Below, piece after piece: positions 1-30,619 of a DNA stretch of 64,000 bases. How positions within the stretch are numbered: position 1 is the stretch's first letter; each line of letters begins with the position of its first letter. The notes under the pieces are model-generated. The model was not told where the DNA came from. It worked only from the letters and a program-made list of their open reading frames with translations, and ran no database searches. This stretch comes from Pyrococcus furiosus DSM 3638 (GTDB lineage: Archaea > Methanobacteriota_B > Thermococci > Thermococcales > Thermococcaceae). The stretch spans positions 1 through 64,000 of the forward strand of contig NC_003413.1 in assembly GCF_000007305.1 (NCBI RefSeq), in the 5' to 3' direction. The translations under genes were made by a program, and so were the position numbers.

Positions 1-93
1 AATTTCTTGTTTTGAGTCATAGTGTAAAGGTATAAATTCAAAATATGTTTGAGGTATTTGTCATGTCCATTTAAGCATCATTTTTGAGTATCT

Positions 94-927
94 TCACACT
101 AATTTACCCATTCCTCCTAAATACAAAACTAGTTCATTAGTGTTATCTACATGGATTAATTTTGCAATATAATCGTCGTAAAAACCACCAATAGAACATA
201 CTCCTAAGTTAAGCATAGATGCGATGAGATAAAAATTTTGCATAATATGGCCAGCTTCAAGGAGTAAATATCTATATCCTCTGTCTCCATACTTCAACCT
301 TATTTTAGAGTAATCCCCTGTAATTATTAATATTAAACCAGCAGTTCTAATCCATTCTTGATTACCAAGAACCTTAACCAACGTATCTAAAAATTCATTT
401 TTTTGTGAAATTTGATACTCTTCAATTTTAATTAATTCATGTGTAAGAGGATCATAATAATAAGATCCAAAAGGTAAGTCATCTACATTGAGCGATATCA
501 AGTATACATGACAAGAATTTAGCCCTCCTGCAGTTGGAAAGGATCTATGATAAATGGAGTGATTTTCTTCATCTTGTATTAAAACAACGCCACTTGAGAG
601 TTTAAGAAGTACAGAAAGTTCATTCAACTTAATTGGTTCATATGAAAATGTTCTGATAGATCTGCGAGTTACAATAGCCCGTACTAAATCATAAGAGAAG
701 CTGGTTACATCAATTCTAGGTAGTTTTATTCTTGTTCTATCTACATACTGTTTAGATGGAAATAAAAATTCATCAATGTTTACTGTTCTGTAAAACTTTT
801 GTATTCTCTCACTTGTTTCTTTGGCATTAGAGGGGTTTATACTTGTGTTCTTGTGAAATAATAACCCCAGATCTAATATGGTAGATTTTTTACGATTTTT
901 TGTTACCTTCACAAAATAATGAACCAT
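94..927 (-). CDS. SagB-type FMN-dependent dehydrogenase of the TOMM operon
   Basis: A 277-residue nitroreductase-fold protein of the SagB/ThcOx type. In this family the enzyme uses FMN to oxidise azolines in a modified peptide to azoles. Visible landmarks are RRSIRTF (about residue 88), the usual FMN phosphate-binding start of the domain, GGLNSCHVYLIS (about 134), a YYYDP segment and LLEAGHIMQNFYLIA (about 223), the dimer/flavin helix. The start is preceded by GGTGAT with good spacing. It is the last gene of a six-gene minus-strand operon and begins 11 nt after the YcaO gene, so the peptide product is probably azole rather than only azoline. Base composition is more A+T-rich than the housekeeping genes downstream. 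The family call is secure; activity on this precursor is inferred from context. Confidence 0.85.
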   Translation of the reverse strand: MVHYFVKVTKNRKKSTILDLGLLFHKNTSINPSNAKETSERIQKFYRTVNIDEFLFPSKQYVDRTRIKLPRIDVTSFSYDLVRAIVTRRSIRTFSYEPIKLNELSVLLKLSSGVVLIQDEENHSIYHRSFPTAGGLNSCHVYLISLNVDDLPFGSYYYDPLTHELIKIEEYQISQKNEFLDTLVKVLGNQEWIRTAGLILIITGDYSKIRLKYGDRGYRYLLLEAGHIMQNFYLIASMLNLGVCSIGGFYDDYIAKLIHVDNTNELVLYLGGMGKLV

Positions 928-938
928 TCAGCATCACC

Positions 939-2243
939 TTATGGATATGGATGAGGAATACACCTTAGCTCTTCATAAGAATGACCTGAAAAGTTATACA
1001 ATCGCTTATCACCCAAATACTGAATGTGACCCGCCAGGATACTTAGCAGTGGGGGGATTATTACCTTAACCACATGAATACCTGTTTTCCTGAGAATTTC
1101 CGGAGTGATATCAACTACGATTAAGTCCAGCACTTTGTTTTTTAAAAGTCTTATAAGCATGTTAAGATGCCTCTCTGCGGAGTCGAAGGAATAAACTGCT
1201 GAGGCTAATATTAGTGACTGTAATGAAAGTTCTTCATTACTATTTATAAAATCGATAAAATGGATGTACATTTTCGGATCTAAATATAAGGCTACGTGAT
1301 CAGTAAAATTTTCTAATTGTTGTTTTGGACTTGGTTGTGTTAGTAGTTTCCATAGATATGTATGAAATGCCTCAGTTATTGCTTTTTTTAAACCATTAAT
1401 TGGATTAATGTTAGAAGAAAGACCAGTAACAACGCTCTTTCTATTATTTTTTCCAATTATTATTGATGCCATAAATGTAGGTATATTAAGATCATTTTCC
1501 ATATATGTGATTATTACCTCTATATCTTTTTTATTTTTGATAAAATCTATAAAGTCCTTAATGTCTTTATTGTCTACTTTTAGTTTGGTTGATCTAAGGT
1601 TCCCATACCAATATATTCTAGCAGTATCTCTCTCAATAACCTCATATATACCATTAATGATAGCCTGAGTTAAATTACTATGCGCAGCACTCCCAGTTGT
1701 TACAGAGGGACTAATTAAATTCTCTCCCCTTTCGGGAATATAGGGAGTTAATACAAAAGATGCAGGAACATAAACTTCCTCGTTTGTAATTAATGATTTC
1801 CCTGGCATCCACTTTATCAAACTATCTTCACAAAATTTAGAATATGGAAAGTCTTTTTGCTGATATTGCCTTTTATGAAACAATTGTATACTATGTGGGC
1901 TGAGCGCATTAAGTCCCATTTTATCTAAATCCCTATAAGTAGCAAAGATCATTTTATCTCTAGCTATAAACTGGTAATACATCCCAATAAAACGTTCTGT
2001 ATATTCTCCAAATGCACGGAGAACAGCTTCTCGTTCAGTTATCCCGACTCCAGAACCACTAAAAGGATAGTCCCAGCAAGATCCCAATAGTCTTTTGACA
2101 TACTTCTTATCTCCTATAACAGTGGCTAAAAAGAGATTTATATCCGTATGATAAGGCTCAAAGATAATAACTTTCTCGACTGGAAGGGGATAATTAGACA
2201 ATTCAAAAACTTCAATATTGCTAACATGACAATTTATCCTCAT
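939..2243 (-). CDS. YcaO-domain cyclodehydratase (TOMM D protein)
   Basis: A 434-residue YcaO protein. YcaO enzymes use ATP to activate the peptide backbone amide so that Cys/Ser/Thr side chains cyclise to azolines. ATP-site signatures are visible: GVGITEREAVLRAFGEYTER (about 65-84) and the NGIYEVIERD segment (about 197-206). The C terminus reads PHPYP, matching the PxPxP tail found in azoline-forming YcaO proteins, whereas the McrA-thioamidating archaeal YcaO family usually lacks it; this argues for peptide heterocyclisation. The start overlaps the stop of the E1-like partner gene by 4 nt (ATGA), implying translational coupling. High confidence in family and in the TOMM assignment; substrate inferred from the adjacent Cys-rich peptide gene. 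Confidence 0.93.
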   Translation of the reverse strand: MRINCHVSNIEVFELSNYPLPVEKVIIFEPYHTDINLFLATVIGDKKYVKRLLGSCWDYPFSGSGVGITEREAVLRAFGEYTERFIGMYYQFIARDKMIFATYRDLDKMGLNALSPHSIQLFHKRQYQQKDFPYSKFCEDSLIKWMPGKSLITNEEVYVPASFVLTPYIPERGENLISPSVTTGSAAHSNLTQAIINGIYEVIERDTARIYWYGNLRSTKLKVDNKDIKDFIDFIKNKKDIEVIITYMENDLNIPTFMASIIIGKNNRKSVVTGLSSNINPINGLKKAITEAFHTYLWKLLTQPSPKQQLENFTDHVALYLDPKMYIHFIDFINSNEELSLQSLILASAVYSFDSAERHLNMLIRLLKNKVLDLIVVDITPEILRKTGIHVVKVIIPPLLSILAGHIQYLGDKRLYNFSGHSYEELRCIPHPYP

Positions 2244-3340
2244 TTAAACCACCTCCCCTCACAGACATTACATTTTGGATCCTTTAAAATAGGGATATAC
2301 CTAATCGTGAGGGTAGGGAGCACCTCAACCAAAATTATTTTATTAAATAATGGAGTTCCTAAACTACCAATTGCTTTACAAACTTCAAGAACTGTAAGAG
2401 CTCCTATAATTTTATCTAGAGGAAATATATAACCAGAAGAACCATAATTATTTATAGCTTTTATTTTATCTTCCATAAAAGTTCCAAAAAATCTCCATGT
2501 TAAGTAACAGTTGAAACATGAAGTATCTGGAGGATAAATAAGAGGACCGATGTACCCCCTTGACCCCTCTATCCAGGCGTACATGTAAGGAGTGCTAATT
2601 TTATACAAGAGATCGTTAAGCTCGCTAAGTAATTTTATATTAAAATGTTCTGAATTTACTATTATAATATCAAAATCACTATCATTTAGATAATTGCTAA
2701 TGTTTATAGTATCTGGTAAATTTTGCACCTCTATTTCAGGAAAGATAGAAGTTAGTTTTTTTCTTAGATAATCTGCCTTCTTCATACCTATTGCATCTTT
2801 AGTGTAAATATCACTTATTTCGGTTGGAGAAATAAAAGTTCTATCAAACAAAATAACTGAACCTACACCAACATTACACAAGTTATATGCAATATTAGCC
2901 CCCAACTTGCCGAGACCTACTATCAAGACCTTGCTCTTCTTTAGATGTTTCTGGTAGTCTGTATATCCTAGACTTTTGAGAAAACATATATGATCATGCA
3001 TTCTAATTAGCTCCTCAAGAGACAATTCGGGCAATAGTCTATCTTTGTTTTCATATATTAAAATGCCCTGCTTAAACATATAGTTAACAACTTCCTTAAT
3101 AATGTTTTTATTATCTGGAAACTCTGTTTCTAGGGACTCTTGTAAGTCTGCAATTGAATAGATTTCATTATTATCTAAAATTTCTTTAATTTTATTAAAA
3201 ATAGTTCTAATATTTTTACCATATAATCTAATTAATTTCCCATTAACATCTCTAAATATAAGTTCATTTGGAGCAGAGAAAATCAAATTAATACCACAGT
3301 TAAACCATATACGTGCATTCTTCCTTTTTGAATTTGCCAT
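2240..3340 (-). CDS. E1-like TOMM cyclodehydratase partner (C protein)
   Basis: About 366 residues related to ThiF/MoeB/E1 proteins, of the TOMM cyclodehydratase C-protein type that recognises the leader peptide and presents it to YcaO. The N-terminal 100 residues look like the winged-helix leader-binding region. A nucleotide-fold motif GLGKLGANIAYNL follows at about 143. A tetracysteine zinc site is formed by CFNC (about 280) and CNVC near the C terminus. An upstream in-frame GTG at 3349 lies inside the Shine-Dalgarno sequence GAGGTGG, so the ATG at 3340 is chosen. It lies 12 nt after the permease gene and overlaps the YcaO start. Classical E1 adenylation of a ubiquitin-like partner is unlikely here because no such partner is nearby. 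Confidence 0.88.
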   Translation of the reverse strand: MANSKRKNARIWFNCGINLIFSAPNELIFRDVNGKLIRLYGKNIRTIFNKIKEILDNNEIYSIADLQESLETEFPDNKNIIKEVVNYMFKQGILIYENKDRLLPELSLEELIRMHDHICFLKSLGYTDYQKHLKKSKVLIVGLGKLGANIAYNLCNVGVGSVILFDRTFISPTEISDIYTKDAIGMKKADYLRKKLTSIFPEIEVQNLPDTINISNYLNDSDFDIIIVNSEHFNIKLLSELNDLLYKISTPYMYAWIEGSRGYIGPLIYPPDTSCFNCYLTWRFFGTFMEDKIKAINNYGSSGYIFPLDKIIGALTVLEVCKAIGSLGTPLFNKIILVEVLPTLTIRYIPILKDPKCNVCEGRWFK

Positions 3341-3352
3341 CTCTACCACCTC

Positions 3353-4126
3353 TTAAATCAACTTATCCTCTATTCTGACTTCTTTCAATCTTTTAAGTGA
3401 CCACACACTTATGAGCTGAAGCACTGTTATATAAAACAGGGAAGTTACTAACAGAAATTCTACAGAAAAGGATAAAATCCCCGAGTAGCCATATATAAGA
3501 AGGCTAAGGATACTGTTTAACGGAGAAAGGAATACTAGTAAAGAAACATCAAGTGACGTATTAACTTGAAGATATCCAAGAAGAAATGTGAGGGATATTA
3601 GGAAGTAGGCTAAATACTCAATTAAATGTGCTTTTTTAAGAAGGGTTGCTATTGCCTGAAGTGAAAATGAAAGTGAAAAATAAAATAGGCCTGCTAGCAT
3701 GGTAAATAGAACCAGCATTAGCAATTTTTTAGGAAATATAATATTTTTTGAAACATATGAATACCCAACTATCGTTGCAAATAGTATTATAAGAGCGTAT
3801 ATTCCAAAGATAACCATCGCTCCCAATGTGCTCTCAAAGTAATATCTGTTTATTGATAGTTTTGAATGCCTGTGAAGGTATATAATCGCTGATGAGCTAA
3901 AATAAATCATCTGCGCTAGTGTCCCACTTACTATGCTAAAAGAAATCAGAATTGCCAAACCATACCAGCGACTGGCATGGTTTAAAACTTTTAGACTATA
4001 ATGTGCAGAATCCGATATAGATAACATGTTTGGTATCAAGGACAGCAAAATAAGGAACAATCCAAAGAAGATTAGACCTCTGCTTCTAAACATGCTTATA
4101 ATAAAGTACTTTAGATACTTAGTCAT
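3353..4126 (-). CDS. ABC-2-type transporter permease of the TOMM operon
   Basis: A 257-residue integral membrane protein with about six hydrophobic segments, the layout of an ABC-2 exporter permease. There are no similarity-specific catalytic motifs. Its ATG overlaps the TGA of the preceding ABC ATPase gene by 4 nt, so the two are probably made together and form a transporter. Placement between the ATPase and the modification enzymes suggests export of the modified peptide or self-immunity, as for SagGHI-like transporters in bacterial TOMM clusters. Substrate is inferred only from gene order. Confidence 0.82.
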   Translation of the reverse strand: MTKYLKYFIISMFRSRGLIFFGLFLILLSLIPNMLSISDSAHYSLKVLNHASRWYGLAILISFSIVSGTLAQMIYFSSSAIIYLHRHSKLSINRYYFESTLGAMVIFGIYALIILFATIVGYSYVSKNIIFPKKLLMLVLFTMLAGLFYFSLSFSLQAIATLLKKAHLIEYLAYFLISLTFLLGYLQVNTSLDVSLLVFLSPLNSILSLLIYGYSGILSFSVEFLLVTSLFYITVLQLISVWSLKRLKEVRIEDKLI

Positions 4127-4926
4127 TCTAGCATCACCCTATATATTTCATCTATACTGGCATAATCTGAAATCTTTTGTCCTATCGGTCTCCTAGTTAA
4201 AATAACATTTTTCTTATCTCCCTGAATCCTAAGAACTATATCTGACTCACCCTCTTCAATATCCGAAAATGTTACATAGCAATTAACAAGGTCAGATGCA
4301 CTCCTAATCGGTCCATATAAGTGACCATTAAATAGGAAATATACTTTAAAAGTGCTAAATTTACTCAGAATATCCAGTCGATGGGTTGTCATGATGATAG
4401 ATGATTTCAGAGAGTTTAGGATTTCAACTGTTTTATTTGTCCGCCAAGGATCGAGACCCTCAAAAGGTTCATCGAGCAATATTAGTTTAGAATCTGTGAA
4501 AAACGCTAAGAGATTCGTTAAGCATTTTTTCTCACCGCTGGATAAATTGTAAAATTTCTTTTCAAGAATATGCTCTAGTTTCATTTCTTTTATAAAATTA
4601 AGAATTTGCTGAGAGGGTATTTCCTTTAAATCACAATAAAGATCAATTAATTCTGATACCTTTATAGAATACACTAATTTGTAAACAGATTCTAGATTTG
4701 TAGAGACTTTCTTTTCTCCAACTACCTTCTCGTAAGGCTTTCCACAGATTTGAATTTTGCCACTTTTAATAGGGATCAATCCCAGTAGTGACTTTAATAG
4801 TGTAGTTTTTCCAGCCCCATTAGTTCCCAATATAATAGCTTTTTCTCCACTATTTAAAGCAAAAGATATGCCCTTTAAAACTTTCACATTATCGTATTCA
4901 ACATTTAGATCTTTAACCACTAACAT
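4123..4926 (-). CDS. ABC transporter ATP-binding protein of the TOMM operon
   Basis: A 267-residue ABC ATPase. Walker A GTNGAGKTT (about 40), an LSSGEKK signature, Walker B LILLDEP and the switch His in TTHR are all present, so the ATPase should be active. A longer frame opens at 5019, but its first 31 codons overlap the precursor-peptide gene and are not ABC-like. The ATG at 4926 has a GGTGG Shine-Dalgarno 6 nt upstream and begins MLVVKDLNVEYDN, a normal ABC N terminus, so this start is chosen. It follows the precursor gene by 46 nt and overlaps the permease by 4 nt. Probable role: export of, or immunity to, the modified peptide. Confidence 0.9.
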   Translation of the reverse strand: MLVVKDLNVEYDNVKVLKGISFALNSGEKAIILGTNGAGKTTLLKSLLGLIPIKSGKIQICGKPYEKVVGEKKVSTNLESVYKLVYSIKVSELIDLYCDLKEIPSQQILNFIKEMKLEHILEKKFYNLSSGEKKCLTNLLAFFTDSKLILLDEPFEGLDPWRTNKTVEILNSLKSSIIMTTHRLDILSKFSTFKVYFLFNGHLYGPIRSASDLVNCYVTFSDIEEGESDIVLRIQGDKKNVILTRRPIGQKISDYASIDEIYRVMLE

Positions 4927-4972
4927 TTTGGCCACCCAAAAATCAAAAAATTTAAAAAAATTAATTAAAAAT

Positions 4973-5131
4973 CTAAGGATTGGGTTTAGTTGAGAAGATT
5001 TTCCAATTGTCCCCTCCACCTCCGCAACAACAGCAAGCTATTATTATGATCGGGTCGTCATCATCTAGTGGTTCTAAAATAGGCCCTTCTTCATACTCCT
5101 CAAATATCTCAAATTTAAATCCTTCCACCAT
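4973..5131 (-). CDS. TOMM/RiPP precursor peptide with tetrad motif (52 aa)
   Basis: A small ORF read directly from the minus strand. It has a strong Shine-Dalgarno (AGGGGTGA, 6 nt before ATG 5131) and is the first gene of the YcaO operon. The N-terminal 22 residues are acidic and aromatic (MVEGFKFEIFEEYEEG...) and look like a leader. Residues 23-40 read DDDDPIIIIACCCCGGGG, followed by DNWKIFSTKPNP. The four consecutive Cys (33-36) are the obvious sites for thiazole formation; Ser47 and Thr48 are weaker candidates. The tetrads are not codon slippage: Cys uses TGC/TGT mixed and Gly uses GGA/GGT/GGG. No cleavage site can be assigned with confidence; cleavage near Asp26-Pro27 or after the Ile run are both possible. 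Identification as precursor rests on position, RBS and composition. Confidence 0.88.
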   Translation of the reverse strand: MVEGFKFEIFEEYEEGPILEPLDDDDPIIIIACCCCGGGGDNWKIFSTKPNP

Positions 5132-5179
5132 CTACTTTCACCCCTCAACAAGTTTTTCATCTACATTTTTAGTGAAACG

Positions 5180-5208
5180 ATAAATAAGTTTTACTGCAAC
5201 TTATTTAT
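5180..5208. promoter_or_regulatory. Perfect 11-bp inverted repeat overlapping the TOMM promoter
   Basis: ATAAATAAGTT (5180-5190) and AACTTATTTAT (5198-5208) are exact reverse complements separated by 7 nt. The right arm overlaps the minus-strand TATA-like element (TTTTATAAATAA, about 5201-5212) and the left arm falls where transcription should start, about 25 nt downstream. That is the position of a repressor operator for the peptide operon. The divergent ABC gene has its own TATA candidate at about 5224-5233 on the plus strand, so one regulator could affect both. The regulator is not identified. Confidence 0.6.
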
Positions 5209-5307
5209 AAAATCCTTGAAACTTTTTTATAAATGTCATGAAACCGTAATTAAAGAAAAAAGAGCAATAGTTATAAGTAACTTCATCAAAGGAACTAAGG
5301 GAGCAAA

Positions 5308-6300
5308 ATGATTGAGTCAGTTAACTTGACTAAGTTTTATCCCCCTCCAATAAAATCGCTCTTTGACCTGAAGAGTTTGAGAGACTTTCTTGGAAAACCC
5401 AGAGAGAAAATCCCAGCCCTAATTGATTTAAATTTCAAAGTTAGAGAAGGTGAGATTTTTGGTCTTTTAGGTCCTAATGGTGCTGGGAAGACTACCTTTT
5501 GCAAGATTGCAAATGCTCTGGTGATTCCAACTCGAGGAAATCTTTACATTAATGGTTACGACTCAGTGAAGGAGCATGATAAAATCAAGGGCAAGATTTT
5601 CACAATTTTTGGTGGTGAGAGAAATTTGTTTGGACTCTTTCAATGGCGTGTAAGCGTGGAGAAGAACTTGAAATTTATTGCAGAACTCTGGGGAATTCCT
5701 AAAGGTGAAGCTGAAAAGAGGATTAACTATGCTTTGGAGCTTTTGAATCTCAGGGATAAGAGGGATGAGTGGTATCAAAAGCTTTCCGCCGGAATGAGGC
5801 AGAAAGTCTATCTCGCACTACCGTTTATTATTCAGCCTGAAGTTTTGATTCTGGATGAACCAACTGTCTATCTTGATGTTTTTACAAGGAGGGAAGTCTG
5901 GAATGCTATTTTAGAACTATCCAGAGATTTTGGAACTACAATAATATTAACTACTCATAACTTGAAGGAGGCCGAAACCTTGTGCGATAGAGTCCTGATT
6001 TTCAACAAAAAGAAAATCGCTGAAGGCAAACCAAAAGAACTAATCGAAAAATTTCAAGCTTTAAAAGCAAGGAGAAGGCTTTTAGTCAAAGTTAGGGGGA
6101 AGGTTAAAACTGATGATTTTGAGGGGATTGCAGAAAAGGTTAACATATACAATCAAAATAGTTTAACTTACCTAGAACTCTATATCCAAGAGGAACACAT
6201 TAGAGAAGTTCTTAGGATCTTGGCAAATTACAATGTAGTTGATCTGCAAAATGAAGCCGCAAGTCTTGAGGATGTCTTTACTCAACTTATAAAATGCTAA
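5308..6300 (+). CDS. ABC transporter ATP-binding protein (partner permease truncated)
   Basis: A 330-residue ABC ATPase of the ABC-2 drug/polysaccharide exporter type. Walker A GPNGAGKTT (about 53), LSAGMRQK signature, Walker B VLILDEPT and TTHN switch are present. An N-terminal insertion (residues 10-35, KSLFDLKSLRDFLGKPREK) precedes the nucleotide-binding core, and about 80 extra residues follow it. It is divergent from the TOMM operon with a 176-bp shared promoter region. A permease gene normally follows such a gene, but only a 35-codon hydrophobic frame overlaps its end. Protein function is therefore uncertain: it may pair with a permease elsewhere or be a decaying transporter. Confidence 0.85.
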   Translation: MIESVNLTKFYPPPIKSLFDLKSLRDFLGKPREKIPALIDLNFKVREGEIFGLLGPNGAGKTTFCKIANALVIPTRGNLYINGYDSVKEHDKIKGKIFTIFGGERNLFGLFQWRVSVEKNLKFIAELWGIPKGEAEKRINYALELLNLRDKRDEWYQKLSAGMRQKVYLALPFIIQPEVLILDEPTVYLDVFTRREVWNAILELSRDFGTTIILTTHNLKEAETLCDRVLIFNKKKIAEGKPKELIEKFQALKARRRLLVKVRGKVKTDDFEGIAEKVNIYNQNSLTYLELYIQEEHIREVLRILANYNVVDLQNEAASLEDVFTQLIKC

Positions 6301-6401
6301 TGGCATCTTTAATTCTACCTTTAACCCCATTACTCTTTCTTTTACTCTTGCTGAGCATTCATCTTTGCGGGCACTCTTTAAGCTCCCTTTACTTCATATA
6401 G
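6294..6401 (+). pseudogene. Short hydrophobic ORF, probable truncated ABC permease
   Basis: A 35-codon frame starts ATG at 6294 and overlaps the last codons of the ABC ATPase gene (TAA 6298-6300), as permease genes of such operons usually do. It encodes MLMASLILPLTPLLFLLLLL and then loses hydrophobicity before a TAG. The overlap and composition suggest the first membrane segment of a lost permease; it could also be a genuine single-span small protein. No other frame nearby continues a permease. Confidence 0.4.
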
Positions 6402-6463
6402 CCACAAAATCTATTAAACTCTAATGCATTACAGTTTTATGCATAAAACTATAAGGTGGTATC

Positions 6464-7951
6464 ATGTTCGTAAATAGAAGGGCGGAATTGAAGATACTAC
6501 ACTCCGCTTACGAGTCGTTAAAAAGAGGAGAAAAGGTTAACGTTGCAATTATTGGGCCGAGGAGAATCGGAAAGACGGAGCTCCTTCTAAAATTCAAGGA
6601 GGAAGTCAATGGAGTGGTTCCATACTTGAACCTACAACGCATCGGGAGCTTAGAGTCTTTTATCTTTGCATACACGAGGGAACTTCTCTACGAGATCGCC
6701 AAAGTTGTGGGAATGAGCATTGAGAGGAGTGACCTCTTAACGTGGGACGATCTACTAATCCTTTCGGCAAAGCTTGACCTTGAAAGAGAGGTTAAGGCCA
6801 TCAGAGATGGAACTCTTGAGACCCTCTTTGAAATGCAGGAGGCAATTTTAGAGAAAACGGGGCAAAAGGCCGTTTTCATATTGGACGAGTTCCAGGAAGT
6901 CGTTAACTTCAAAGGCTTCCTAGAGACGATGCGTGCTGTCACGGAAAAGCAGAGAAACATTGCGTACTTTATTTCTGGTTCTGCCGTGAGGATGATGGAA
7001 GAAATCTTAGCTCCAAAGAATCCTTTCTTTGGCCAGTTTAAGCGAGTTTATCTCAGAGGATTGCCAAAAGAGGACACAATAGAACTCGCAAAGACAACGT
7101 TGGAGAGGGCAGGAATAGAGGCAACTCACTCGGCGCTTGAGTTGATATATAAACTCACTCAGGGGCATCCATTCTATGTTTTGGCCCTCTGTAGGCGTCT
7201 AATTGAAGAGGGATTTGAGAAAGTTAAGAGTAGAGATGTTTACTATGCCTTTCTCACCGAACTCTTGAGCGAGAAGGGTGACATCTACATGCACCTTGAG
7301 TATCTCTTCAACGAGTCACTATCGAGGGCCTATAAAGGGCCGATACACAAGCAAATTCTACTCATACTGGCTCAAGAGGAAGGTCTAAGGCTCTCAGAAA
7401 TCGCAAGACGCTTGAACAAGCCCAGCGGTGAGGTGTCGAACTATCTAAAGTTCCTTCTGAGGACGGATCTAATATTAAAGCAGGGGGAGAGGTATTACTT
7501 CACCGATAAGCTCATGCGTTTTTGGCTTGCAAAGACCTACCTTGGCATCACCGAGCTTGAGCTTAGGCGGGAGAGATTCTTGGAAGAGTTAGTTAGGGAG
7601 CTTGAAGAGAAGTACCTCAAGGCGAAGAAAGAGCTTGGAATTGCAAAGGAAGCAATGATCAGGGAGAGGATGAGGGAAATTTTTGACATAGATTTCAAGC
7701 CCTATAGGAGGGGCGATGTCGAGTTTGATGGCGTCGCCTTTAGAGATGGGGTCTACGTGCTCGAGATCAAGTGGAGGAACAGACCTGCAACTTATAAAGA
7801 TGTGAAGGATTTCATCAGGAAAGTCAAAGGTGAGTTTGGATCTGCGACGATGTTCTTCTTCTCAAGATCTGGCTTCACCGAGAAGGCTAAAGAGCTATGT
7901 GAGAAGGAAGGGGTTAAGATGCTTACGCCTAAAGACTTGGGAATTTCATGA
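6464..7951 (+). CDS. Archaeal ATPase with C-terminal DUF234/nuclease-like domain
   Basis: A 495-residue member of the archaeal AAA-like ATPase family. The N-terminal Walker A is IGPRRIGKTELL (about 29) and the Walker B VFILDEFQE lies at about 140. A winged-helix segment (about 300-345, EGLRLSEIARRLNKPSGEVSNYLKFL) follows. The C-terminal DUF234-like region contains DVEFDGVAF...VLEIKW, resembling a PD-(D/E)xK nuclease core (D, ExK). The start has AAGGTGG upstream. Such proteins are common multicopy genes in Thermococcales with no settled role; some are linked to mobile elements or membrane/DNA processes. G+C content is higher than the TOMM region. It stands alone between two intergenic gaps. 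Confidence 0.85.
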   Translation: MFVNRRAELKILHSAYESLKRGEKVNVAIIGPRRIGKTELLLKFKEEVNGVVPYLNLQRIGSLESFIFAYTRELLYEIAKVVGMSIERSDLLTWDDLLILSAKLDLEREVKAIRDGTLETLFEMQEAILEKTGQKAVFILDEFQEVVNFKGFLETMRAVTEKQRNIAYFISGSAVRMMEEILAPKNPFFGQFKRVYLRGLPKEDTIELAKTTLERAGIEATHSALELIYKLTQGHPFYVLALCRRLIEEGFEKVKSRDVYYAFLTELLSEKGDIYMHLEYLFNESLSRAYKGPIHKQILLILAQEEGLRLSEIARRLNKPSGEVSNYLKFLLRTDLILKQGERYYFTDKLMRFWLAKTYLGITELELRRERFLEELVRELEEKYLKAKKELGIAKEAMIRERMREIFDIDFKPYRRGDVEFDGVAFRDGVYVLEIKWRNRPATYKDVKDFIRKVKGEFGSATMFFFSRSGFTEKAKELCEKEGVKMLTPKDLGIS

Positions 7952-8053
7952 GAAATAAGAATCGAAAGGCGTAAATAAATGCAAGGAGCTGTATCGAGAA
8001 GCATGCCTAAATCCTTTTAAAAATAAATAATATTCCTAAAATCGGGTGGTGAG

Positions 8054-8548
8054 ATGAAGATACTGTGGGCCCCATGGCGAATTGAGTACATAAGGGCACC
8101 GAAGCATGAAGGTTGCATATTCTGCGACTTTCCCAGGGAGAACAGGGACAGGGAAAGGCTCATCCTCTACAGGGGGAAGCACGCGTTCATCATAATGAAC
8201 AATTACCCATACAACCCAGGGCACGTTATGGTGGCTCCTTACAGGCACGTTGCTAGTGTAGAGGACCTAACCGATGAGGAGATGTTAGAAATAATGAAGC
8301 TCGCTGCACTTATAATGAAGGCAATAAGGAAAGTTATGAAGCCAGATGGCTTTAACCTCGGCTTCAACATAGGGAAGGTTGCAGGGGCAGGAGTTGATGG
8401 ACATGTTCATCTTCACATAGTTCCCAGGTGGAATGGAGATACAAACTTCATGCCAGTAATAGCGGACACAAAAGTAATTCCTGAGTCACTGGAGCAAGCA
8501 TATGAAGAGCTCAAGAAAGCTTTAGAGGAGATAGAAAATGCTGAGTGA
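8054..8548 (+). CDS. HIT-family nucleotide hydrolase/transferase
   Basis: A 164-residue HIT protein. The defining histidine triad reads HVHLHIVPRW (about residues 116-125). An N-terminal CIFCDF (about 20) resembles half a zinc site of AP4A-phosphorylase-like HIT proteins. The family hydrolyses or phosphorolyses dinucleoside polyphosphates and nucleoside phosphoramidates. The start is preceded by GGTGGTGAG. Its last codons overlap the start of the E1-like gene by 11 nt, so the pair forms a small operon. The precise substrate cannot be read from sequence. Confidence 0.9.
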   Translation: MKILWAPWRIEYIRAPKHEGCIFCDFPRENRDRERLILYRGKHAFIIMNNYPYNPGHVMVAPYRHVASVEDLTDEEMLEIMKLAALIMKAIRKVMKPDGFNLGFNIGKVAGAGVDGHVHLHIVPRWNGDTNFMPVIADTKVIPESLEQAYEELKKALEEIENAE

Positions 8549-9230
8549 AAGAGAGCTTGAGCGATACGACAGACAGATAATGATCTTCGGCATTGAAGGA
8601 CAGGAAAAGCTGAAAAAAGCCAATGTTGCTGTTGTTGGAGTAGGAGGACTAGGCAGCCCTGTCGCCTATTACCTAGCTGCTGCCGGAGTTGGAACAATTC
8701 TCTTAATAGACGAGCAGACTCCAGAGCTCAGCAACTTAAACAGACAGATACTCCACTGGGAGGAGGATATTGAGAAAAACCCCAAACCAATATCCGCAAA
8801 GTGGAAACTTGAAAGGTTCAACTCGAACATAAAAATTGAGACATTTGTTGGGAGGTTAAGTGAGGAGAACATCGACGAAGTTCTCTCCGGGGTTGATGTA
8901 ATCGTTGATTGCCTGGATAACTTTGAGACAAGATACTTACTTGATGATTTTGCACACAAGAAGGGAATACCCCTCGTTCACGGGGCCGTAGAGGGGTTTT
9001 ATGGACAAGTAACTACAATAATCCCAGGAAAGACAAAGAGACTCAGAGAAATATTTCCCAAGGTTAAAAAGAAGGGCAAATTCCCAATAGTCGGGGCAAC
9101 CGCTGGAGTAATAGGAACTATCCAGGCAAGTGAGGTAATAAAGCTAATTACAGGATATGGCGAGCCACTTGCAAATAAGCTTTTGATTATAGACTTGGCG
9201 AACAACACCTACGAAATAATCGAAATTTAA
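8538..9230 (+). CDS. MoeB/ThiF-family E1-like adenylyltransferase lacking zinc cysteines
   Basis: A 230-residue E1-like protein with a clear nucleotide-binding fold: GVGGLGSPVAYYLAAAGVG (about 34-52), the aspartate LLIDEQ, and ELSNLNRQILH (about 65). Family members adenylate the C-terminal Gly of ubiquitin-like sulfur carriers (MoaD/ThiS/SAMP). Unlike typical MoeB or UbaA, the crossover region (GKTKRLREIFPKVKKKGKFPIVG, described here only by its position at about 155-177) has no cysteines, so both the tetracysteine zinc site and the usual catalytic Cys are missing. The only nearby Cys is in VDCLDN. It may catalyse adenylation without thioester transfer. Coupled to the HIT gene by overlap. Confidence 0.85.
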   Translation: MLSERELERYDRQIMIFGIEGQEKLKKANVAVVGVGGLGSPVAYYLAAAGVGTILLIDEQTPELSNLNRQILHWEEDIEKNPKPISAKWKLERFNSNIKIETFVGRLSEENIDEVLSGVDVIVDCLDNFETRYLLDDFAHKKGIPLVHGAVEGFYGQVTTIIPGKTKRLREIFPKVKKKGKFPIVGATAGVIGTIQASEVIKLITGYGEPLANKLLIIDLANNTYEIIEI

Positions 9231-9231
9231 A

Positions 9232-9300
9232 TTAGGGCTCAGCCACTCTGGGGCCAATCATCGCCTTTGCTCAGCATTGGATTCAGTCGTCATCGCCTAA
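9232..9300 (-). ncRNA. C/D-box sRNA candidate (2'-O-methylation guide)
   Basis: Read on the minus strand the stretch shows the archaeal C/D order: C box GCGATGA, 15 nt, D' box CTGA, 6 nt, C' box GCGATGA, 15 nt, D box CTGA. The flanks TTAGG and CCTAA can pair into a terminal stem around C and D. Such RNAs direct fibrillarin to methylate RNA opposite the fifth guide base before D or D'. Guides end ...CAGAGTGG before D and ...GAATCCAATG before D'. It lies directly after and antisense to the 3' flank of the E1-like gene. Guides of 15 nt are slightly long and no clear promoter is seen. Confidence 0.72.
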
Positions 9301-9540
9301 GTGAAAATACTTGATAGCACTTGAAAAATCTTTCCAAAAAGAAAAAGAAGAGAAACTTCCCCAAAATTTTACCTCACAACCTATATTTTACCACCCAAGC
9401 CTTATTTTAGCCCACCATGGTAGAAGTTTGGTTTTTATAAGATTTATCAAAAAGAATTTGGATAAATTTCAATTTTCTAGCTGGAAATAAGAAGGGTATT
9501 TGAAAGATAATCCAAAACATAAGTGTGGGAACACCAAAAG

Positions 9541-9549
9541 TTTATATAC
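9541..9549 (+). promoter_or_regulatory. TATA/BRE promoter of SRP RNA
   Basis: TTTATATAC preceded by CCAAAAG (a BRE-like purine tract) lies about 25 nt upstream of the G+C-rich SRP RNA start. It is a textbook strong archaeal promoter. Confidence 0.8.
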
Positions 9550-9566
9550 TCCTCAGAAAATGTATG

Positions 9567-9892
9567 AGTGGCGGCGGGCTAGGCCGGGGGGTTCGGCGTC
9601 CCCTGTAACCGGAAACCGCCGATATGCCGGGGCCGAAGCCCGGGGGGCGGTTCCCAAAGCCGCTCCCAGAAGCCGAGGTCGAACGATGAGTCCTCGTCCC
9701 GCGGGGTGCCCGGTGGGGGAGGCACGGCTGAAGGGCCGTGCTAACCCCCTTTGGGCCCCGAACCCCGCAAGGCCCGGAAGGGAGCAGCGGTAGGGGCCAC
9801 GGAGCACGCTCGCGGGGGTGCGGGGATGAGATAGGCCTCGGTGGATGGGAGCGGTGGAGGGTTCCCACCCTCGGGCGTGCCCGCCGCCGCTA
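9567..9892 (+). ncRNA. ffs: Signal recognition particle 7S RNA
   Basis: A sharply G+C-rich block of about 325 nt in an A+T-rich setting, with a strong promoter in front and a T-containing tail behind. The two ends pair (AGTGGCGGCGGGC at the start with GCCCGCCGCCGCT at the end), the helix 1/5 closing stem of archaeal SRP RNA. An internal block with GGCCCGGAAGGGAGCAGCGG resembles the helix 8 region with its GNAR-type loop and asymmetric bulge, the SRP54 site. It acts as the scaffold of the ribonucleoprotein that targets secretory proteins. Ends are judged from pairing and may be off by a few nt. ORFs inside it are artefacts. Confidence 0.93.
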
Positions 9893-11809: not shown

Positions 11810-12613
11810 ATGGAAATGACGAAAGCAATAGTAAAAGAAAATCCCAGGATTGAAGAGATAAAAGAGTTATTGGAAGTTGCAGAGAGTAGGGAAGGGTTAC
11901 TTACAATTTTTGCTAGGTGTACCGTTTATTATGAGGGAAGGGCCAAGAGTGAGCTTGGAGAAGGAGACAGGATTATAATAATAAAGCCTGATGGAAGCTT
12001 CCTTATCCACCAGAAGAAGAAAAGGGAGCCTGTCAATTGGCAACCCCCTGGGAGTAAAGTAAAAATGGAAGGAAACTCCTTAATTAGCATTAGAAGGAAC
12101 CCAAAAGAAACACTCAAAGTTGATATAATTGAAGCATATGCAGCAGTTCTTTTCATGGCAGAGGACTATGAGGAGCTAACCCTAACTGGAAGTGAAGCAG
12201 AGATGGCTGAGCTCATTTTCCAAAATCCCAATGTTATCGAGGAAGGATTTAAACCAATGTTTAGAGAGAAGCCAATAAAGCATGGAATAGTTGATGTACT
12301 TGGCGTGGACAGAGAGGGAAATATAGTAGTTCTAGAACTGAAAAGGAGGAGGGCCGATTTACACGCGGTTAGTCAGTTAAAGAGGTACGTAGATGCACTA
12401 AAAGAAGAACATGGAAATAAAGTAAGAGGAATATTGGTGGCACCTTCTCTAACGGAAGGAGCTAAAAAGCTTTTAGAGAAACTTGGGCTAGAGTTTAGAA
12501 AGTTAGAACCTCCTAAAAAAGGTAAAAAGAAAAGTTCAAAGCAAAAAACTCTAGACTTCCTCAACGATACTGTTAGGATAACTGGGGCATCACCTCCTGA
12601 AGCCATTCAGTAA
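11810..12613 (+). CDS. nucS: Endonuclease NucS, C terminus altered by IS insertion
   Basis: A 267-residue NucS/EndoMS endonuclease that cuts mismatched or branched DNA and works with PCNA. The N-terminal DNA-binding domain is followed by the RecB-like nuclease core VDVLGVDREGNIVVLELKRR (about 165-184) and SQLKRY, giving the D-ExK-QxxxY signature. A PCNA-interacting QKTLDFL motif ends the natural protein. The IS element begins right after codon 252 (Asn): the last two codons (Pro-Tyr) and stop of the ancestral gene lie beyond the IS at 13355-13363. The present frame instead reads 15 codons into the IS end (DTVRITGASPPEAIQ). The PIP motif is intact, so function probably survives. Confidence 0.93.
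   Translation: MEMTKAIVKENPRIEEIKELLEVAESREGLLTIFARCTVYYEGRAKSELGEGDRIIIIKPDGSFLIHQKKKREPVNWQPPGSKVKMEGNSLISIRRNPKETLKVDIIEAYAAVLFMAEDYEELTLTGSEAEMAELIFQNPNVIEEGFKPMFREKPIKHGIVDVLGVDREGNIVVLELKRRRADLHAVSQLKRYVDALKEEHGNKVRGILVAPSLTEGAKKLLEKLGLEFRKLEPPKKGKKKSSKQKTLDFLNDTVRITGASPPEAIQ
12566..12581 (+). repeat. Left terminal inverted repeat of the IS
   Basis: GATACTGTTAGGATAA; exact inverted match to the right end. It is translated as the first codons of the new NucS tail. Confidence 0.95.
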
Positions 12614-13274
12614 CATCACCAGGCGGATCACCAAAACTAGAATGAATTCTGACAAAATTATACCAGAAGGCAAACAGAAAAACAAACCTATGAACCCTCC
12701 TCCAGTCTTTACCCCTGAAATTATTCCAGAAACGCTTCGTCCTCTCCTTCAACGTCCTAAACCAGCGCTCAACACTGTTCCTCGGCCCGAAAGTCACATG
12801 CAGATAACCCAACCTCAAACTCTTAAAAGCAGACTTATACCAGCTCGCCCTGTCAACCAGAAAGACAGGCTGCCCTTCACACGACTTTAAAACAACCAGA
12901 ATGAAATCCCTGGCAACCCACCAGTTTCTAACAGTCGTAATCCAGACTGCTAAAACTTCCTTGCTCTCAACGTCAATTGCAGCCCAGAGGTATCTTTTCT
13001 TCCCGTTGATTTTTATTACTGTTTCGTCAACTGCGATGAAGTTTCGCTGTTTTTTGACTGCGAGGATTTTTGGCTTGTAAACTGCTTCTGCGAGTTTTTG
13101 GACTGCCTCCCAGACTGTTACGTGACTGATTTTGAGTATTCTGGCGGTTTGCCGGTAACTGAGGCCTCGCAGGTATAATTCTACTCCCCTGATTTTCTTT
13201 TCTGGTGGGATTTTGTTGCGACGAAAGGGTTTTAAGGCTGAAACCACCCAGTAAATAATGGTTTCAGACTTCAT
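12573..13274 (-). CDS. IS6-family DDE transposase
   Basis: A 233-residue transposase. An N-terminal helix-turn-helix (GLSYRQTARILKISHVTVWE, about 39-58) precedes the DDE core: D in FIAVDETVIKI (about 83), D in FLVDRASWY (about 145), and E in NSVERWFRTLKERTKRFWNNF (about 171). The open frame extends to 13322, but the ATG at 13274 (MKSETIIYW) gives the standard length for ISPfu-type transposases. It is intact, so the element may still move. Confidence 0.93.
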   Translation of the reverse strand: MKSETIIYWVVSALKPFRRNKIPPEKKIRGVELYLRGLSYRQTARILKISHVTVWEAVQKLAEAVYKPKILAVKKQRNFIAVDETVIKINGKKRYLWAAIDVESKEVLAVWITTVRNWWVARDFILVVLKSCEGQPVFLVDRASWYKSAFKSLRLGYLHVTFGPRNSVERWFRTLKERTKRFWNNFRGKDWRRVHRFVFLFAFWYNFVRIHSSFGDPPGDVTEWLQEVMPQLS

Positions 13275-13330
13275 GTTCCCCCTTCTTTTTCTAAAGTACT
13301 GCCAGTAACTTAAACCTGACACCCCACAGC

Positions 13331-27090: not shown

Positions 27091-30000
27091 GTTCCAATAA
27101 GACTAAAATAGAATTGAAAGTTATATGATTCATTTCTTGTCTTAAGCAATCTGATCTGACCAGAGCTGGTTCCAATAAGACTAAAATAGAATTGAAAGTA
27201 AAGTTTATAAACTTTTCGTGTATAGAAAAGTGCAGTTCCAATAAGACTAAAATAGAATTGAAAGCCGGTTCTGCACCCGAAACTTTCATACCAAAATACT
27301 CCGTTCCAATAAGACTAAAATAGAATTGAAAGGGTCATACTTTACTGCTACAACCCGCTCTGGGTCGAGTTCCAATAAGACTAAAATAGAATTGAAAGCT
27401 CTTATGCTGAATTTTTCTGAATCTTCGGATACTGGCAAGTTCCAATAAGACTAAAATAGAATTGAAAGGCGTTAATGAACAATAAGCCTGACACGAACAT
27501 AAACAGTTCCAATAAGACTAAAATAGAATTGAAAGGGAAATGTGCGTAAAGGTTTTCTTCCCAGGCTTTCGCTGTTCCAATAAGACTAAAATAGAATTGA
27601 AAGGTAGTGAGGCGTTGAACTTGACCCACCACCAGCCCTGTTCCAATAAGACTAAAATAGAATTGAAAGCACTACTGTCCTCTCGACAATTGACGTTATT
27701 ACAGTCGAGTTCCAATAAGACTAAAATAGAATTGAAAGTCAAAACTTTACAAAAGTAAAGAAAAAATTGAACGGGTGTTCCAATAAGACTAAAATAGAAT
27801 TGAAAGGCGTGCCGTGTGTTTTTATAACTGCTCTAATGTGTCTGTTCCAATAAGACTAAAATAGAATTGAAAGTTGCTGCATATCCAGTGTGGTTGGTCT
27901 TGAGGTATATGTTCCAATAAGACTAAAATAGAATTGAAAGAGACATTAGGAGACAGTATAGGCCAGAACTTGCCCAGGTTCCAATAAGACTAAAATAGAA
28001 TTGAAAGTTAGCAAATTGCCGATTACTGCACATAAAAAAAATAGTTCCAATAAGACTAAAATAGAATTGAAAGTTTTTTTGCCCGTTTTTTCTTTTCCCT
28101 CACCGCTTTTGTTCCAATAAGACTAAAATAGAATTGAAAGAGAATCTATAAGGGATTGAAAGGTCAAGGGTATACTATGTTCCAATAAGACTAAAATAGA
28201 ATTGAAAGACGAACCTCTTTGATCGTAAAAATTTCAATCATCTCTGTTCCAATAAGACTAAAATAGAATTGAAAGCTCCTATGCGGTCATTAGACCCCCG
28301 CCGGGGGCCGGCAGGTTCCAATAAGACTAAAATAGAATTGAAAGTGAGTTGTTTAGTCTAACTCTTACACCATCAGAAATAAGTTCCAATAAGACTAAAA
28401 TAGAATTGAAAGACAAATTAGTCAGAACCCCCCGCAATGAAAAATTTTTGGTTCCAATAAGACTAAAATAGAATTGAAAGGACAGCGTGGACACGGTGAA
28501 CGGGCTCTGGAAGGAGTTCCAATAAGACTAAAATAGAATTGAAAGTGCGCTATTCTCGGGTCAAGCCTCCCAGCCTGAACCTGTTCCAATAAGACTAAAA
28601 TAGAATTGAAAGAGCGGTCTGAGCCTGAGCCGTCGCTCCCTCAAGCGAGTTCCAATAAGACTAAAATAGAATTGAAAGTTATTCCTGATAGAACCTTTGC
28701 CACTGTTGAATTCCAGGTTCCAATAAGACTAAAATAGAATTGAAAGCTGTATTTCTTGCGGTAATACCCCCCAAATAGTTCCTGTTCCAATAAGACTAAA
28801 ATAGAATTGAAAGCATACTTGCGGATACGGATCCAGTCAAAACTTGACTGTTCCAATAAGACTAAAATAGAATTGAAAGAACACTTTCCTTAACTCTGGG
28901 TCGTCTATGTTTTTGAGTTCCAATAAGACTAAAATCGAATTGAAAGCTGGAGCGTTGGGCACAAGCATGGGGATGATTGTGGAGGTTCCAATAAGACTAA
29001 AATAGAATTGAAAGAGGGTTGGGTTCTCAATGGTGTATGGAGCGTTTCTTAGTTCCAATAAGACTAAAATAGAATTGAAAGCTATTAAACGCAATCCGCT
29101 CAGCCAAACATCACCCCTCGTTCCAATAAGACTAAAATAGAATTGAAAGTGATGGAGTAGATGAAATTCCTGGGGTGTCTTGGGAAGTTCCAATAAGACT
29201 AAAATAGAATTGAAAGGGTCTCATCTCGTGCAGCCTTTCTTCCCTCAACCCACGTTCCAATAAGACTAAAATAGAATTGAAAGGGAGCTAGAATTGATGA
29301 AGGAGGTTGCTCAAGTAGTGCGTTCCAATAAGACTAAAATAGAATTGAAAGCACAAAGTTCTTCCATTCTACTAGTCCAGCTCTCTGTGTTCCAATAAGA
29401 CTAAAATAGAATTGAAAGCTGTCTCCCTAAGAGCATACAATCCTCTGTACTCTATGTTCCAATAAGACTAAAATAGAATTGAAAGGGAGTAGAAATGCCC
29501 AAATTCCCCTTAGGGACAAGATGGTTCCAATAAGACTAAAATAGAATTGAAAGCACCACCACGATGAAGGTACCGTTCTCAACGTCTACTTCAGTTCCAA
29601 TAAGACTAAAATAGAATTGAAAGAATCAACCCCAAACCTTGCAAGGGTTGCCTCAACTGGGTTCCAATAAGACTAAAATAGAATTGAAAGAACTTCCTCT
29701 CCAACTCCCTCACCTCCTCATCCGACAAGTTCCAATAAGACTAAAATAGAATTGAAAGACTGGATTGAGAGCAACTTGTCGAATTATGTCGTCAAGCTCG
29801 TCATTGAGTTCCAATAAGACTAAAATAGAATTGAAAGGATAATGCTAGGTTATTATATAGGTATAAGGCAAGGTGTCCAGTTCCAATAAGACTAAAATAG
29901 AATTGAAAGGTTTCCAAGCCATTCCAACCACCCCACATGTGTTGTTTTCATGTTCCAATAAGACTAAAATAGAATTGAAAGTTTGTGATAGTGTTCTTTG

Positions 30001-30619
30001 CAACGAAGAGCTTGCTGGTCAGTTCCAATAAGACTAAAATAGAATTGAAAGGAACATTGTCCCCTCCTCCAAACAGTTTTTCATGTCTGTTCCAATAAGA
30101 CTAAAATAGAATTGAAAGTAGAGTGCGGCGATTATTTTGGTTCTCAGCGTTGCTCGTTCCAATAAGACTAAAATAGAATTGAAAGTCAGCAGTTACGTCG
30201 TTCTTCCAGGTGAGAATACCATGTTCCAATAAGACTAAAATAGAATTGAAAGAATAATCAGCAAAATCACGGGACATAGAAGGCTAGACTACATCCTACA
30301 CGTTCCAATAAGACTAAAATAGAATTGAAAGAGAGAATCTGGTAAGGAGACAGTAAACTGATCATGCAATGTTCCAATAAGACTAAAATAGAATTGAAAG
30401 GAGTTTCCAAGATGAGTGCCCCGAGCCGGGGGCTCGGGGCATGGTTCCAATAAGAACTAAAATAGAATTGAAAGAGAGGCCCCCACATCTGATTTAATCT
30501 GAGATGGAACTTCCACAATTGTTCCAATAAGACTAAAATAGAATTGAAAGACGGTTGGCCTTGATACACTGGCCAAAAGAAATCTACGGTTCCAATAAGA
30601 CCAAAAATAAAATTGAAAA
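27091..30619 (+). CRISPR. CRISPR array, 52 repeats and 51 spacers, P. furiosus type
   Basis: The 30-nt repeat runs from GTTCCAATAAGAC to ATAGAATTGAAAG; the last 8 nt ATTGAAAG are the known 5' tag of P. furiosus crRNAs made by Cas6, so transcription is rightward. I count 52 copies by position. Spacers are mostly 36-40 nt. Exceptions are the first (48), several near the far end (49, 42, 42, 49, 43, 56) and the last (28). Variant repeats: 28917 (one A to C), 30444 (one extra A) and the terminal 30589 copy, which is degenerate (GACCAAAAATAAAATTGAAAA). No cas genes lie in this window, so effectors act in trans. ORFs over the array are artefacts. Confidence 0.99.
30589..30619 (+). repeat. Degenerate terminal CRISPR repeat
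   Basis: The last repeat keeps GTTCCAATAAGA but diverges in its 3' half and ends ATTGAAAA instead of ATTGAAAG. This marks the leader-distal end. The 190 bp that follow (30620-30811) are A+T-rich with T-runs, and I see no gene in them. Confidence 0.9.

Follow-up and report, generated by a model that had tools for sequence, protein, structure and literature searches.

The question raised by this locus is what a short open reading frame with four successive homopolymer tetrads encodes, and why the DNA in front of it recurs at other loci of Thermococcales that carry different genes. The window, i.e. the whole stretch of 64,000 nucleotides of Pyrococcus furiosus DSM 3638 that was analysed, holds this frame on its minus strand, starting with ATG and translating into MVEGFKFEIFEEYEEGPILEPLDDDDPIIIIACCCCGGGGDNWKIFSTKPNP, a peptide of 52 aa in which the runs follow each other as DDDD-P-IIII-A-CCCC-GGGG. 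The four Cys are residues 33–36 (codons at 5024–5035, those of the Gly run at 5012–5023), one Ser and one Thr follow after them, and residues 1 to about 32 probably make up the leader. When homopolymer runs of at least four residues were counted in a control pool of 3486 distinct ORFs of 25–120 aa, taken from the window and 27 loci (L001–L007 and L116–L135), 3323 ORFs had none, 151 had one, nine had two and two had three, and the single ORF with four runs was the frame under study, which confirms the four tetrads described in the initial annotation; of the two ORFs with three runs, one (4980–5183, plus strand) is the shadow of this same frame. The codons within the runs are mixed (GAT GAT GAC GAC, ATC ATA ATA ATA, TGC TGT TGT TGC and GGA GGT GGA GGG), as the initial annotation had pointed out, and this speaks against recent triplet slippage, but the selection on the protein that had been read from it is not proven thereby. 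The rarity claimed for four contiguous thiazoles was overstated, as plantazolicin and YM-216391 are azole RiPPs with five or so contiguous azoles.

Away from the precursor and on the same strand follow genes for an ABC ATPase, a probable permease and SagC-, SagD- and SagB-type proteins, in this order (Table 1). The enzymes that define SagBCD-type azole RiPPs (TOMM/LAP), a SagD-type YcaO protein, an E1-like SagC and a SagB dehydrogenase, are thereby all present, and the small Cys-bearing ORF adjoins the Sag operon as a precursor of this group should. All three enzymes score above curated cut-offs, are co-directional with the ORF and lie downstream of it, so that the earlier suggestion of a RiPP precursor beside azole-forming enzymes holds. 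The SagD-type protein ends with PHPYP and the SagC-type protein contains the Cys pairs CFNC and CNVC; such an end and paired Cys are typical of SagD- and SagC-type enzymes, respectively. Four adjacent Cys could also bind metal, which would make the peptide a small metal-binding protein and not an azole precursor, but the ORF is placed between the module described below and the SagB/SagC/SagD operon, a place that in other genomes is taken by different precursor-like genes, and this reading is highly improbable. Because the complete azole-RiPP enzyme set (ATPase, probable permease, SagC, SagD and SagB) is found on the same strand, the precursor reading is well supported, and the ORF very probably encodes a precursor from which a thiazole-modified peptide is made.

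Table 1. Features around the putative azole precursor, with positions in the window.
Feature	Position	Strand	Basis
SagB-type dehydrogenase (azoline to azole)	94..927	-	TIGR03605 195.3 bits, cut-off 78.4; PF00881
SagD-type YcaO cyclodehydratase	939..2243	-	TIGR03604 353.4 bits, cut-off 219.25; PF02624
SagC-type E1-like cyclodehydratase partner	2240..3349	-	TIGR03603 384.4 bits, cut-off 187.65
Hydrophobic protein, probable ABC permease of the cassette	3353..4126	-	ORF; role from position
ABC transporter ATPase of the azole cassette	4123..4929	-	PF00005 79.6 bits
T-runs of 5-7 T, precursor stop to ATPase start	4930..4972	-	Sequence; putative role
Precursor peptide (very probable), 52 aa	4973..5131	-	ORF call, codons, identical G080 copy, similarity to class-c precursors
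Divergent promoter module (predicted)	5132..5300	.	DNA search; alignment of window copy with 22 of 24 recurrences
Box TTTATAAATAAGTTGCAGTAAAACTTAT, pointing to the precursor	5184..5211	-	TATA-like element 5204-5211 and near-invariant stretch
Exporter ATPase, constant side, divergent from the precursor	5308..6300	+	PF00005; 72-99% identity to 12 other copies

The T-runs that separate the precursor from the ATPase gene would possibly work as a leaky archaeal terminator and may favour a short precursor transcript. The longest ORF of the cassette ATPase begins at a GTG at 5019, and the hydrophobic protein that follows gave no Pfam or NCBIfam match at E 0.01. The window stops 93 bases past SagB, and when looking further on for a SagE-like CAAX protease, as expected of the streptolysin-S-like subgroup, the next gene in the related genome G080 was found to match Peptidase_M1. 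Elsewhere in the window lie an Archaeal SRP RNA (9572–9886), within a GC-rich stretch, and 51 CRISPR-DR6 repeats (27091–30550).

The azole cargo is rare. A SagD homologue at E up to 1e-8 was found in one of 94 Thermococcales genomes, G080, which also encodes the precursor as a protein of 100% identity, the sole clear relative among the 94 genomes. Across the phylum the SagD family exceeded its cut-off in one of 115 genomes, again G080. Over positions 1–5300 a single substitution (1749) and a single indel (5256) set the window apart from G080, a near-identity that indicates recent transfer, and beyond 5300 the sequences diverge. P. furiosus and T. litoralis have an almost identical 16-kb region in common (PMC6640164) and were isolated from the same area, Vulcano (PMC2246101). 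A match to the precursor in G010 was dismissed as chance, being 42% identical over 26 residues (E 0.067) in a 37-aa frame of a genome without the box. Searching IMG/VR with the peptide gave 189 stretches matching a pattern, none of them coding for a relative, and no relative was found among 53 stretches of genome contigs retrieved with SagC. A plasmid tblastn with SagC returned 135 records, all below 60% identity (21–29% among the 15 matches listed). The Thermococcales loci that served as starting points came from a contig scan with the neighbouring HIT-type protein.

The intergenic region between the precursor and the divergent ABC ATPase, here referred to as the module, is far more widespread. 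By DNA search it recurs, the window not included, at no fewer than 24 places in at least 17 of the 94 genomes, a lower bound with the best eight first-look candidates scored in many genomes. When 22 of these places (all but L126 and L134) were aligned to the module of the window, TATA-like elements appeared and, directly downstream from the one on the precursor side, the near-invariant RCAGTAAARCTTAT. The resulting box has the 28-base consensus TTTATAAAnnnRTTRCAGTAAARCTTAT. When searched as the pattern TTTATAAANNNRTTRCAGTAAARCTTAT with up to two mismatches it gave 23 sites in 17 of the 94 genomes, 22 exact and one with a single mismatch, and the reversed pattern, used as control, gave no site in any of the 94. 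All 23 sites coincide with module places, and at the 24th place (G084:C251) the box is kept but the sequence departs from the module at the TATA element. Within the genomes searched the box is thus private to this kind of locus and makes a precise mining handle, every one of its sites lying at such a locus. The module is predicted to act as a promoter. An inverted repeat noticed by eye around the box of the window was set aside, as it is not kept in most module copies.

All 24 places (L090 and L116–L135) were inspected for what follows the module, and 22 remain when L122 and L126, whose contigs end before a precursor could be read, are removed. Right after the module a small precursor-like ORF of 23–77 aa is found at 19 of the 22, and by eye these fall into seven classes: (a) the azole precursor, at one place, in G080; (b) peptides with EFEIIE-like leaders and mostly a Cys-rich core, at seven places, one of merely 23 aa; (c) KIEILKVENGK...GCGGGG, at four places, one truncated; (d) ...FELLKLGGDIIIERGRCG, at two places; (e) YxPPxGGE, at two places; (f) EWxxxP with spaced Cys, in tandem, at two places; and (g) the peptide of L133, at one place. 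The three modules without a precursor are the second copy in L116, which runs into a fragment that resembles the terminal part of a radical SAM protein, that of L132, leading to a gene that resembles DUF4932 proteins, and that of L134, leading to an ABC transporter gene as judged from the ORF list. The putative maturases scanned from nine non-azole cassettes (one each from L116, L118, L119, L120, L123, L125, L128 and L130 and two from L133) are radical SAM proteins in ten cases out of ten. Several cassettes are accompanied by Peptidase_M1 and DUF4932 proteins, and a class-d cassette contains a PPDK_N / PEP-utilizer protein.

Some further observations concern the same loci. Proteins with PPDK_N and PEP-utilizer regions are encoded in or near cassettes at L118:4954–6462 (family scan) and, alike by eye, at L127:348–1841 and L135:10206–11702. 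In L130 (~9266–9626) and L131 (~2227–2587) tandem precursor-like ORFs with EWIVEP/EWIIRP starts and regularly spaced Cys precede radical SAM enzymes. The tandem ORFs of L123 (~8720–9057) and L128 (~8690–9035) have YxPPxGGE-like N-termini and Val/Ala-rich ends and adjoin a radical SAM enzyme, beside which lies a small protein that gave no match in L123 and a sub-threshold match to PqqD in L128. The region L117:7963–9239 looks decayed: its ATPase gene is spread over two frames, and of a class-b-like precursor a remnant of 23 aa is left.

On the opposite side of the module little changes. Among 13 copies of the exporter ATPase the median pairwise identity is 77% (minimum 68.5%, none of the 78 pairs without a match), against a median of 27% for the maturases, one from each of 13 cassettes, where 13 of 78 pairs gave no match and were scored as 0. 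In the maturase set SagC stands for the window. The loci sampled coincide in part between the two sets; those whose ATPase gene is split, incomplete or missing from the retrieved DNA (e.g. L117, L126, L129 and L135) do not enter the ATPase set. A constant transporter combined with variable peptide cargo, the mark of a cargo-swapping bacteriocin locus, is what these values (77% versus 27%) describe. Against TIGR01188 the ATPase of the window gave 224.4 bits, below the cut-off of 312.45. A permease partner for the constant ATPase was sought in G011 and G077 and found in neither, and none adjoins the ATPase of the window, so that the exporter on the constant side may be incomplete there. In L090 the exporter permease stands next to a gene (1567–1863) for a 98-aa MarR-like winged-helix protein, to which similar DNA occurs in L118, L119, L120 and L121; this protein is a candidate regulator acting on the box.

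Gene order, compared by eye from translations, places many of the loci at three chromosomal sites, whose flanking genes we take to be HIT- and MoeB-like (window and G011), Hel308-like helicase (G080, G077, G089 and G086) and purQ-like (G057, G062, G070, G002, G026 and G046), and the cargo varies at one same chromosomal site. The Hel308-like helicase gene of G080 (L174:3989–6575) appears as three ORFs, and as one ORF in L117 and L119.

Traces of a probable exchange of cargo are seen at the locus itself. Positions 5140–8954 of the window match G011 at 95.5% with the same gene order, and instead of the azole operon G011 has a class-b radical-SAM cassette, which shares 96% identity with its class-b counterpart in G080. 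In a three-way alignment (window, G080 and G011) of 5132–6290, 14 columns up to 5171 agree with G080 and 185 with G011, the first of these being a homopolymer (5256) and the others lying from 5418 onward; five columns to the right of 5418 run against the pattern by agreeing with G080 (5444, 5445, 5451, 5582 and 6141). With no informative column in 5172–5417 except the homopolymer at 5255–5256, the window is a mosaic whose cargo is almost that of G080 and whose exporter flank follows G011, with the seam inside this interval, which covers module sequence and the opening 110 bp of the ATPase gene. The 246-bp tract devoid of informative columns, the homopolymer apart, is compatible with homologous recombination. 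Since G080 equals the window and G011 in the seam region, and G084, with the ATPase closest to that of G080 (97%), is only 91% alike over the 171 bp compared, a Pyrococcus-like donor and a recipient in the G080 lineage appear the likelier direction of transfer.

Remnants of a permease start, 43–48 bp long, follow a module in both G080 and G011 (L090 and L116), and in G080 two cassettes separate the permease and the MarR-like gene from the ATPase, a displacement because of which the cassettes seem to have been stacked within the exporter operon. The 3' ends of the M1-like genes are 74–84% alike between cassettes, over about 450 bp in most comparisons. That the mapped seam falls where it does, that remnants such as repeated exchange would leave are present and that the ATPase is kept while the cargo differs fit poorly with the view that this is an ordinary TOMM (azole-RiPP) cluster acquired through transfer, in which case the promoter would be shared through common ancestry of the exporter locus and would not be a preferred recombination seam. 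This reading we regard as doubtful, although the Sag enzymes belong to known families, conservation of the promoter could follow from the exporter gene beside it, the column-by-column mapping covers one seam, and an IS240-type DDE transposase gene lies at 12573–13322, about 7.4 kb from the precursor, in an organism described in PMC6640164 as prone to rearrangement via IS elements.

The precursors behind the module were also compared with each other by shuffle tests. The window peptide at full length gave p 0.0005 and 0.00135 against two class-c peptides, scores that are aided by shared poly-Gly, and its leader alone gave p 0.008 and 0.009 (20000 shuffles for each of these values), or about 0.003 each with a shorter leader; these two class-c precursors adjoin radical SAM enzymes. 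For class b one of seven peptides fell below 0.05 (p 0.028) and the remaining six ranged from 0.11 to 0.69, while the leader pairs b–c and c–d were not significant (p 0.16–0.68). A likeness to the class-d leaders was rejected, the shuffle test being not significant. Taken over 11 peptides the values were p 0.022 for the best score and p 0.037 for the sum, and the observed sum was reached by two of 3477 background ORFs. The motif [KED]F[EDK][IL][IFL]E, chosen after the peptides were seen, occurs within the first 14 residues of four of the 3486 ORFs, namely the window peptide and three class-b precursors. Descent of the azole precursor from a class-c-like precursor is a lead suggested by these leader comparisons.

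The explanation that we favour, with good confidence, is that an azole-RiPP cassette lies in a cargo-swapping peptide locus, where the shared promoter is the place of exchange by homologous recombination. SagC would bind the leader and present the core, SagD (YcaO) would cyclise the Cys of the CCCC run, SagB would oxidise the rings and the ABC transporter of the cassette would export the product. The precursor and its operon would be a single item of cargo, exchangeable as a whole, at a peptide locus of the Thermococcales whose divergent module would drive expression both ways, towards the ABC-2 exporter and towards a variable cassette of precursor and maturase. Being common to all the loci, the module could double as a homology arm through which homologous recombination would replace cassettes or stack them, with the conserved 3' ends of the M1-peptidase genes as a possible second arm. 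More tentative, and by our estimate somewhat short of an even chance, is the wider proposal of a dedicated peptide-exchange system of the Thermococcales, in which the module would be control element and seam for entire cassettes with at least seven kinds of precursor, azole as well as radical-SAM, and the azole precursor would have come from class c, its leader kept and its chemistry replaced. The product is likely to act antagonistically between Thermococcales, judging from the diversity of the cargo, the three successive cassettes in G080 and the recent transfer, which look more like a competition locus than like the source of a signalling or self-acting regulatory peptide; the latter is unlikely, even if the small winged-helix (MarR-like) gene by the exporter permease in L090, the similar DNA in L118–L121 and the peptidase-like genes beside several cassettes would suit it.

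What merits attention in this locus is its setting, in which one promoter would be common to peptide chemistries that are swapped among Thermococcales and would also be their seam. If true, it would constitute a bacteriocin-like exchange locus in hyperthermophilic archaea, with entire RiPP chemistries swapped behind one promoter. P. furiosus is genetically tractable, and product, function and exchange are therefore directly testable.

In the open literature no title or abstract start among the matches listed describes these loci or this precursor, and no paper was found that combines RiPP, archaea, Thermococcus and radical SAM. PMC9867215 and PMC8277102, in which terms of both fields occur, deal with unrelated matters in the passages concerned. 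A P. furiosus cluster was reportedly listed by Lee et al. in 2008, for which reason the azole enzyme cluster itself may not be new; the 52-aa peptide would be a new or little-described azole RiPP. With the SagBCD-type clusters described in PMC4603692, in the main text of which the word Pyrococcus does not occur, the locus shares SagB, SagC, SagD, an ABC transporter and an adjacent small precursor, but it differs in the acidic leader, in the runs of four, in being cargo of a promoter-linked exchange locus and in the Peptidase_M1-matching gene beyond SagB in G080. The Cys-rich radical SAM/SPASM systems (CefB, Clo7bot and TIGR04463) provide the models that the maturases of L116 and L130, which stand behind the same module, match best, though with scores below the curated cut-offs; no radical SAM gene occurs in the azole cassette as far as it lies within the window.

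Related leaders that feed different chemistries are also known from the NHLP and Nif11 leader families, where they are used with several maturases, while the leader relation found here rests on two class-c peptides with modest p-values. A parallel in organisation is offered by blp of pneumococcus and pln of Lactiplantibacillus, cargo-swapping bacteriocin loci with a constant transporter, a shared promoter element and variable peptides; the loci described here likewise have a constant transporter and variable peptides, together with a shared box that would be a promoter element. Unlike these, the present loci are archaeal, and the maturation chemistry is swapped along with the peptide.
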